Part shown: positions 46,087 through 47,122 of the stretch, one piece after another
How positions within the stretch are numbered: the stretch's first letter is position 1
Layout of the letters: each line of letters begins with the position of its first letter
DNA from: Candidatus Bathyarchaeota archaeon
GTDB taxonomy: Archaea; Thermoproteota; Bathyarchaeia; 40CM-2-53-6
Direction: 5' to 3'
DNA: 52,113 bases
NCBI GenBank assembly: GCA_005888635.1
Contig: VBAW01000020.1
Coordinates: 1 to 52,113 of the forward strand
The notes under the pieces: generated by a model
What the model was told of the DNA's origin: nothing
The model's database searches: none
The model's input: only the letters and a program-made list of their open reading frames with translations
Program-made: the position numbers and the translations under genes

Positions 46087-47122
46087 TCAACTCTGAGCTT
46101 TGACTGTGACGGTCTTCGTTTTCCATAAACGGGGATAGGTCTCAGCGGGCATTATGACTCTCACAGTTTTCGCGGCCAGGCCGTGATCCTCCTTCATCAT
46201 CTGTTCGCTCGACATGAGTGCCTTTGACAAGGCGACGAGCTCGTCCTTCAAAGTGAACAATGCGATCGGCATCTTTGGGACAATACCTTCACTGAGCCGG
46301 ACTATTCCGGGGACTGCCAGTTCTGCTCCGTGGCAGATTGAGCTGACCGTAGAATCACGGATGTAGACATGTGGGACATACTGGAAGGCTGACTCCATTG
46401 GTTTCACCATTCGTCTCGTTAGCATGTCTCTCTCCTTAGGGTTAGCCTCTGACAGTTGCATCAGGTCGTACAATGAGAATGATTCCTCTTCGGTAAAGCT
46501 TCCCGCCCGGGTCCGTCGAAGCTCACGCATATGCGCGCCAACTCCAAGCACCTCGCCAACGTCATAGACTAGTTTCCGAATGTATGTTCCTGCCTGACAT
46601 CCGACCCTGAACAGAATTTCGCGTCCATCCATCTCAACGTCTCGAATGTAGTAGATCCTCCTTTTTCTCACATCTCTCCTAACAGCAGCTCTAACAGGAG
46701 GTCTCTGAAGAATGTCCCCGACGAACTCTTCGAGCACTGCCTGGATTTTCTTCTCTTCCACGTCAGCGTGGAGCGCCATTAGGCAGACGTATTCTTTGCC
46801 GGTAAGTAGGAAGGCCTGGATTGTCTTTGTTGCGTCTTCAAGAGCTAGAGGAAGCACGCCTGTGACCATCGGATTGCTCCAACCTGGTGAAGGTCTCTAG
46901 AGTTCCGCCATGGCCGGCATGCTTCAGCCGCAACATTCGTTTGACCCAAGCTACAACCTCGTGGCTGGACGGCCCGGAGGGCTTGTCCAGGTTGATGAGT
47001 CCAAAACGAAGATGCTGATCGAGAGGCCTCTTCGTCGGCGGACATCCTAGGGCTGGGTCGGTTTCCTCTTCAAGCTTGACCAGTAGCTTTCTCTGCTCTT
47101 CCCAGGGAGCCCGCTGAGACAC
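46087..47122 (-). CDS. cbf5: tRNA/rRNA pseudouridine synthase Cbf5, with mRNA intron
   Basis: Catalytic subunit of H/ACA ribonucleoproteins. The coding sequence is complement(join(46087..46874, 46897..47122)), 337 residues. Exon 1 reads [16 protein letters not shown] near 40 and KHAGHGGTL near 68; exon 2 continues as [17 protein letters not shown]. Only the join gives the conserved GGTLDPxxTG motif with the catalytic Asp, split across the junction. The C-terminus (about 255-335) is a PUA domain ending [10 protein letters not shown]. Reading without splicing shifts the frame and loses the catalytic Asp. It lies downstream of eL14, in the usual archaeal order. Confidence 0.92.
46875..46896 (-). 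other. 22-nt bulge-helix-bulge intron in cbf5 pre-mRNA
   Basis: On the minus strand the exon ends CTCT-AG and the intron ends GGAG-CA. CTCT pairs with GGAG (one wobble) as a four-pair central helix, with 3-nt bulges AG|A and CA|A on opposite strands. A five-pair inner stem GACCT/AGGTT closes a short loop. Cleavage after the second base of each bulge yields an in-frame GAT, the catalytic Asp codon. Such introns, removed by the tRNA splicing endonuclease, are known in cbf5 of Crenarchaeota. Confidence 0.9.

Follow-up and report, generated by a model that had tools for sequence, protein, structure and literature searches.

Pre-mRNA introns in the cbf5 gene of crenarchaea were reportedly described by Watanabe in 2002. 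According to the accessible part of Yokobori 2009 (PMC2738675), these introns measure 16–44 bp, split the catalytic Asp codon after letter 1 and are confined to Desulfurococcales and Sulfolobales, while Thermoproteales, Cenarchaeum, Nitrosopumilus and Korarchaeum stand without a cbf5 intron in its table, and a single gain, before these two orders diverged, was inferred. In 2020, the accessible text of PMC7714728 gave the crenarchaeal cbf5 intron as the only other archaeal mRNA intron of the bulge-helix-bulge (BHB) type reported, besides the one found in HVO_1309 of Haloferax volcanii. In the papers found, as far as their accessible parts go, archaeal mRNA splicing thus comes down to two orders of crenarchaea and a single haloarchaeal leader, and none of this literature (few subscription papers among it, and including the accessible parts of PMC7714728, PMC12918454, PMC6379350 and PMC12397907) places a cbf5 intron beyond Desulfurococcales and Sulfolobales.

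The stretch of DNA analysed here (hereafter the window, 52,113 nt from a Candidatus Bathyarchaeota archaeon) contains a cbf5 gene interrupted by 22 nt, and this copy is the known crenarchaeal cbf5 intron, ordinary in its class. It resembles the introns of Desulfurococcales and Sulfolobales in gene, position, size class and BHB-like motif, in a predicted cut after letter 2 of each bulge and in lacking a reading frame of its own, and differs from them in that the lineage of the window lies outside both orders. Comparison of the intron position with the crenarchaeal ones, which the original prediction had proposed as a check, gave the same break after letter 1 of the Asp codon, a match that rests on the wording of the accessible part of PMC2738675. 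With the HVO_1309 intron (PMC7714728, accessible part), it shares its location on an mRNA and, as predicted, processing by EndA, but that intron lies in a 5′ UTR instead of a codon and in another gene. Archaeal tRNA and rRNA BHB introns have the motif and the enzymes (EndA and RtcB) in common with it, whereas their host RNA is non-coding; the rRNA introns often come with homing endonuclease genes (PMC2738675, accessible part).

The split cbf5 gene and its 22-nt intron

All features of the locus lie on the minus strand. Exon 1 (47122-46897, 226 nt) opens with a GTG start and ends with CTA-G, its final letter being letter 1 of the catalytic Asp codon; exon 2 (46874-46087, 788 nt) begins with AT-CCG and runs from letters 2 and 3 of the Asp codon through the stop. 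The intron between them (46896-46875, 22 nt) is bounded by the cuts AG^A (46897/46896) and CA^A (46875/46874), as assigned from same-site introns and compensatory pairing. From the letters alone, the junction could slide by one, since an A opens both the intron and exon 2, and sliding junctions of this kind (same first letter in intron and exon 2) were settled throughout by the bulge rule. The two cbf5 pieces had been read as a single gene rather than a frameshift, and this was borne out: removal of the 22 nt gives 1014 nt, i.e., 337 codons plus a stop, which encode a full-length Cbf5 with HGGTLDPMVTG intact. In the unspliced frame, a stop is reached 19 codons beyond the Leu of GGTL.

With PRK04270, the NCBIfam model of Cbf5, the spliced protein reached 412 bits, compared to 306 bits for the fragment from 46869 (the second open frame) and 83 bits for the open frame 46841-47122 that holds exon 1, the latter also reaching 87.9 bits with the model CBF5 (TIGR00425) over residues 10-76. 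In addition, spliced Cbf5 aligned through its GGTLDP catalytic motif to the solved archaeal Cbf5 2aus_C (E 5.8e-114). The host genome (92.33% complete, 159 contigs) gave a single TruB_N match, so that no spare cbf5 copy was seen, and the nearest named relatives among the best 80 kept from the protein scan were Bathyarchaeota and archaeon bins, whose titles suggest a soil habitat. An Rfam search of the window yielded no match at gathering thresholds, and a tRNA scan of the window found none.

The BHB motif (46870-46907, minus strand) is both the minimum-energy and the centroid structure of 46912-46860, and the pair tables support it. It comprises an outer helix of four pairs (46907-46904/46873-46870, CGGA/UCCG), a 4-bp central helix (46902-46899/46880-46877, CUCU/GGAG), a 5-bp inner stem (46895-46891/46885-46881, GACCU/AGGUU) and two bulges of 3 nt each (46898-46896 with AG^A, 46876-46874 with CA^A), and cutting between bulge letters 2 and 3 yields the right exons and GGTLDPMVTG. 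The fold had been called ideal. This description fits the 3-nt bulges, the four-pair central helix and the five-pair inner stem, but it is too strong for the outer helix, which is set off from the central helix by a bulged A (46903) and has two of its four pairs in strict register, and for the energy, which is ordinary (z -0.13, with 85 of 200 dinucleotide shuffles equally good). Folding energy was consequently rejected as support for the intron, and the proof of the intron is comparative. Note that among the 15 sequences folded, window included, the minimum-energy fold was clearly non-BHB for a close relative (L005) and for L036.

For this comparison, a first set of 259 loci including the window was read at the site, with an intron in 138 and none in 121 (113 by pattern, 8 by eye), and 50 more loci among L336-L385 added 3 with an intron and 47 without (three by eye); some loci are the same gene fetched twice, and once identical introns were removed, 132 distinct ones were left. 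It should be noted that all counted introns follow letter 1 of the Asp codon because the search pattern demanded that site, introns elsewhere in cbf5 falling by definition outside the count. Since the pattern constrains nothing but exon letters, the letters of the introns and their pairing count as independent evidence. The 132 introns are 12–76 nt long (median 23), with lengths in all three residue classes, and the very short intron of the original prediction is at 22 nt an ordinary one, by this range as well as by the published 16–44 bp (PMC2738675, accessible part). Same-site introns of just 12–13 nt, below that published minimum of 16 bp (same source), were seen in L252, L246, L274, L275, L283 and L290 and leave scant room for an inner stem.

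Pairing was kept across these introns while the letters changed. Relatives from other assemblies (L002-L006 and L010) carry 22–23 nt at the same nucleotide, and their stems, like that of L085, are altered yet mostly paired; in nine sequences near the window, the inner pairs co-vary (e.g., A-U to G-C) and 42 of the 45 cells are paired. The central helix has 4/4 pairs, with compensatory changes, in 125 of the 132 distinct introns, the remaining seven being without a full one. In permutation tests, which were not corrected for relatedness among the sequences, 122 complete central helices in an earlier set of 129 distinct introns compare with a mean of 76 and a maximum of 87 when introns were permuted among genes (2000 permutations), and the 452 of 500 cells in which the first five inner pairs are formed in introns of at least 20 nt (n=100) compare with a mean of 303 and a maximum of 330 when the halves were permuted. 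Alternative registers (-2 to +3) gave at most 5 complete central helices out of 129. As an example of the exon-intron covariation, the third base of the Thr codon and its partner in the intron pair as C-G in 84 cases, U-A in 32, A-U in 10 and U-G in 2, with one mismatch (129 distinct).

Genes for the splicing machinery were found in the host genome, namely two EndA paralogues (PF01974 matches, on contigs C17 and C69) and RtcB. The 189-aa EndA matches catalytic chains of the crenarchaeal type, the nearest being 3p1z_B (E 4.9e-45), presumably from Aeropyrum pernix; its active-site stretch (GADFAVY...DHAPF...RK) is retained, and a Lys aligns with residue 44 of that chain. In the accessible part of PMC6379350, K44 is the lysine of a crenarchaea-specific loop tied to broad substrate specificity. 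The 207-aa EndA is diverged, with a Phe in place of Tyr and a gap in the His column of its alignment to 1a79_A. Separate catalytic and structural EndA genes are present, whose products would form a joint enzyme, and the literature links this EndA type to imperfect BHB motifs and cbf5 introns (PMC2738675 and PMC6379350, accessible parts).

The split frame and its restoration, the fold, the covariation, the fixed site at the published crenarchaeal position and a host gene set of EndA alpha, beta-like paralogue and RtcB all agree with the BHB pre-mRNA intron first put forward for this locus, and we hold with high confidence that the 22 nt represent such an intron of cbf5, to be cut out by EndA and joined by RtcB to give the Cbf5 mRNA. 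The codons for G-T-L-D-P would provide the exon half of the BHB, with the 4-bp central helix completed by the 3′ end of the intron; a two-subunit EndA (alpha plus beta) would then cut after letter 2 of each 3-nt bulge, RtcB would ligate the exons into the message encoding Cbf5, an RNA-guided pseudouridine synthase of 337 aa, and this spliced form would be the one translated. Translation across the 22 nt by programmed ribosomal frameshifting or bypass, with no splicing, is how the first cbf5 examples were once taken by others (PMC2738675, accessible part), but it is very improbable here: lengths of 12–76 nt in all three residue classes fit RNA removal and not a slippery site, the Asp codon is split after letter 1, exon and intron covary within a splicing-endonuclease motif, and pre-mRNA splicing of cbf5 has been reported in several crenarchaea (same source). 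An artefact of sequencing or assembly, or decay of cbf5 into a pseudogene, might be suspected in a fragmented draft of 159 contigs, but the chance is negligible given the same interruption with pairing kept in independent assemblies of relatives, the intron in 101 of 173 Thermoproteota genomes fetched at the site (a non-random sample), and conserved exons on both sides in the only TruB_N match of the genome.

Range of the intron across archaea

The survey covered the phyla of the window, of L036 (Asgard), of L047 (Woesearchaeota by title) and of G416; Thermoproteota, Nanoarchaeota and DPANN are names that we assume for the surveyed groups, and the phylum of non-named genomes rests on the titles of named central loci. 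In the phylum of the window, 389 of the 398 genomes searched had a Cbf5 match. Four of its genomes with 92–97% completeness (G035, G344, G364 and G248) lacked any Cbf5 match when searched with the exon 2 query, and G035 and G248 gave none with the spliced query either, which reflects gaps or real absence. The site was fetched in 173 Thermoproteota genomes, 101 with and 72 without the intron, a ratio that is not a prevalence since the first picks favoured high scores and broken-looking frames. By family, 49 of the 65 sampled include the intron: 44 (often represented by one or two genomes) are only intron-bearing and 5 have both states, the other 16 being only intronless, with L375 and L382 counted intronless by eye.

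Beyond this phylum, a Cbf5 match was obtained in 220 of 227 genomes of the Asgard phylum, where an intron at the site was confirmed in at least 14 (L036, L060 and the genomes of L217-L219, L221, L223, L224, L226-L228, L231, L361 and L362), and in 264 of 279 genomes of the phylum of L047, where at least 7 carry it (G425, G655, G671, G685, G708, G738 and G831), as do the named L049 and L062. Both carrier counts are lower bounds, because only broken, low-scoring and over-long matches were followed. In the phylum of G416 (5 genomes), all five Cbf5 matches were unbroken across the site. A second, intron-bearing cbf5 was observed in two Asgard bins (L216 in G619 and L335 in G597); as these copies are placed among Thermoproteota in the tree and another cbf5 lies in the same bin, they are probable bin contamination, and their introns are still within the 132.

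In the genome sequences of Thermoproteota, Asgard archaea and Nanoarchaeota, introns of this class thus share a single nucleotide position. The original prediction mentioned neither this breadth nor the pattern of stops described below. The range looks new, being wider than the one published in the papers found, and it does not fit a gain in the common ancestor of Desulfurococcales and Sulfolobales as proposed by Yokobori. If the survey holds, archaeal mRNA splicing of this one gene would occur in three major archaeal groups, and gene callers that ignore the cbf5 intron would split an essential gene in all of them. Moreover, the fixed site, the presence of intron-bearing beside intronless relatives and the pattern of stops described below would make intron gain, intron loss and translational selection testable in prokaryotes.

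In-frame stops, codon usage and the question of regulation

In eukaryotes, the multiple-of-three introns of ciliates are enriched in stops. The cbf5 introns resemble them as frame-keeping introns with in-frame stops, whereas ciliate introns are spliceosomal and come with nonsense-mediated decay; we know of no pathway of this type in archaea. All 27 multiple-of-three introns among the 132 distinct ones contain an in-frame stop, compared to 58 of the 105 others (Fisher p 1.8e-6), these counts ignoring the tree and the 27 falling into 23 clusters of similar interior. When the interiors of the first 24 multiple-of-three introns were shuffled 5000 times, stops occurred in 9.6 of them on average and in no more than 18. 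The enrichment extends beyond the 27, since among the 105 other introns, too, stops are commoner in the reading frame (58) than in either of the remaining frames (25 and 27).

A bias was suspected in that stop-free multiple-of-three introns might hide in long open frames. The long-frame check found 35 more Thermoproteota genomes to be all intronless (L378, L375 and L382 by eye), leaving aside about eleven listed Thermoproteota long-frame genomes and those beyond the list. Five Asgard genomes with over-long matches comprised three intronless ones and two with multiple-of-three introns, both with stops, and four Nanoarchaeota with over-long matches (L250, L251, L253 and L254) were intronless at the site. 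The in-frame stops suggest selection against readthrough to a full-length, catalytically dead Cbf5, which might still bind its partners and occupy H/ACA guide RNPs.

A regulatory role for the cbf5 intron is said to be an older suggestion of Watanabe and co-workers, and authors working on the crenarchaeal intron had proposed a negative regulator (PMC2738675, accessible part). In the same vein, splicing had been predicted to gate pseudouridylation at this locus, i.e., the intron would be a switch through which the splicing rate sets the pseudouridylation level. The active enzyme does need splicing, and the stops in 27 of 27 multiple-of-three introns leave unspliced mRNA unproductive, but nothing indicates regulation, and 17 of the 32 genomes fetched in family f6 are without the intron, which is odd for an important switch; we therefore regard such a switch as unlikely, and the gating claim goes further than the requirement for splicing.

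Codon usage next to the site also differs between the two kinds of gene. The codons GGG and CTA are found in 96/132 and 108/132 intron-bearing genes, respectively, and in 12/112 and 10/112 intronless ones, the latter counted over 112 distinct genes with 8 read by eye and 47 later finds excluded. Within family f6, genes with the intron have CTA 14 times and TTA once, and the intronless ones (5 of 17 counted) have TTA twice, CTC twice and TTG once. A tree-aware test of the Leu codon gave 7 independent pairs on starred branches, with a mean of 2.8 in the expected direction and 0.0 against and a median p of 0.25; these independent pairs are too few to separate the association between CTA and the intron from kinship.

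Possible gains and losses at a single nucleotide

The history of the intron was followed on a FastTree tree of 153 Cbf5 proteins from 162 loci, from which L244 and L272 (no protein) and L004, L006, L028, L215, L222, L232 and L333 (short or repeats) were dropped, and on a second tree (IQ-TREE) of 67 rows, with L243 excluded for its long branch and 28 of 61 inner branches open. In the former, the Nanoarchaeota rows and a single unclassed one group together (64 rows, FastTree support 99) with the carriers inside, and thus their introns did not come with a Thermoproteota gene. In the latter, the 8 Nanoarchaeota carriers are unclustered, requiring 8 changes compared to a shuffled mean of 7.7, and constraining them to one clade was rejected (AU p 2e-35). 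On the 153-protein tree, a minimum of 16 changes accounts for the intron when gains are permitted, compared to 26 losses for a single origin at the drawn root. Such scatter across groups implies either gains recurring at the same nucleotide or a very large number of losses, and we lean towards the repeated gain over one old origin with many losses.

We give about an even chance to repeated independent insertion, in which the exon half of the BHB is supplied in advance by the conserved G-T-L-D-P codons, acting as a proto-splice site. The native nesting of the Nanoarchaeota carriers, with their placement in one clade rejected, argues for it, as do the Gly-Thr and Asp-Pro codons that encode the outer helix and a second cbf5 site in another genome, by which insertion elsewhere appears possible. 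It is weakened by the scarcity of outer-helix codons in intronless genes (GGG, 12/112), since these codons may follow the intron instead of preceding it, as well as by the many weak branches of the gene tree and a gain process for which no mechanism is known. Somewhat less probable, in our view, is one ancient intron that predates the split of Thermoproteota, Asgard and Nanoarchaeota and was lost many times. Its identical nucleotide position, a consensus common to the groups and the 44 of 65 sampled Thermoproteota families that are only intron-bearing (often one or two genomes each) speak for this history; in contrast, the 26 losses against at least 16 changes with gains (FastTree tree) and the lack of clustering among the Nanoarchaeota carriers (8 changes for 8 carriers) speak against it. 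Building on repeated insertion, we tentatively propose, at slightly worse than even chances, that the Asp codon acts as a hot spot for introns, hit separately in Thermoproteota, Asgard and DPANN archaea because the conserved GGTLDP motif preforms half of the splicing-endonuclease substrate, and that the introns then evolve so that unspliced mRNA always terminates. If true, these stops would constitute a translational safeguard of prokaryotic mRNA splicing, comparable to eukaryotic introns.

The enzyme side was looked at in Nanoarchaeota. Among the carriers searched, one EndA match each was found in G425, G433, G685, G708 and G671, one cut by the contig end in G738 and two partial ones in G655, and the search of the genome of L049 gave none. 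EndA is present in nine of the ten intronless Nanoarchaeota searched, and as intronless genomes also have one EndA, the single gene is not peculiar to carriers. The central and outer helices are complete in all 9 Nanoarchaeota introns, compared to a complete outer helix in 70 of 123 others (Fisher p 0.011), which would fit a stricter enzyme; the little or missing inner stem in four of the nine (L049, L246, L252 and L343) fits such an enzyme less well.

Other interruptions of cbf5 were also encountered. A second, different BHB site of 41 nt lies at L028:2864-2904 (the gene is that of L215, Hermodarchaeota), between codons for LD and KP; its minimum-energy fold combines CUGG/CCGG as central helix with an inner stem of 6 bp, excision restores GIINLDKPPGPTSHEV, and it was seen in one genome only. 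In 10 further cases, the Cbf5 match comes in two halves with a break near residue 178, about at a Cys, pointing to inteins, and judging by their titles, none of the papers found concerns inteins in cbf5. Five of these genomes belong to the Asgard phylum (G441:C1:1889115-1891550, G595:C60:1133-3568, G462, G498 and G499) and five to the Nanoarchaeota phylum (G665, G814, G866, G878 and G907). The intein-bearing Cbf5 frames span 824–902 aa, the halves in G498, G499, G866 and G878 being listed with different frame lengths, and an Intein_splicing domain (PF14890) lies between the halves in 10/10 genomes, with several matches under the family cut-off.
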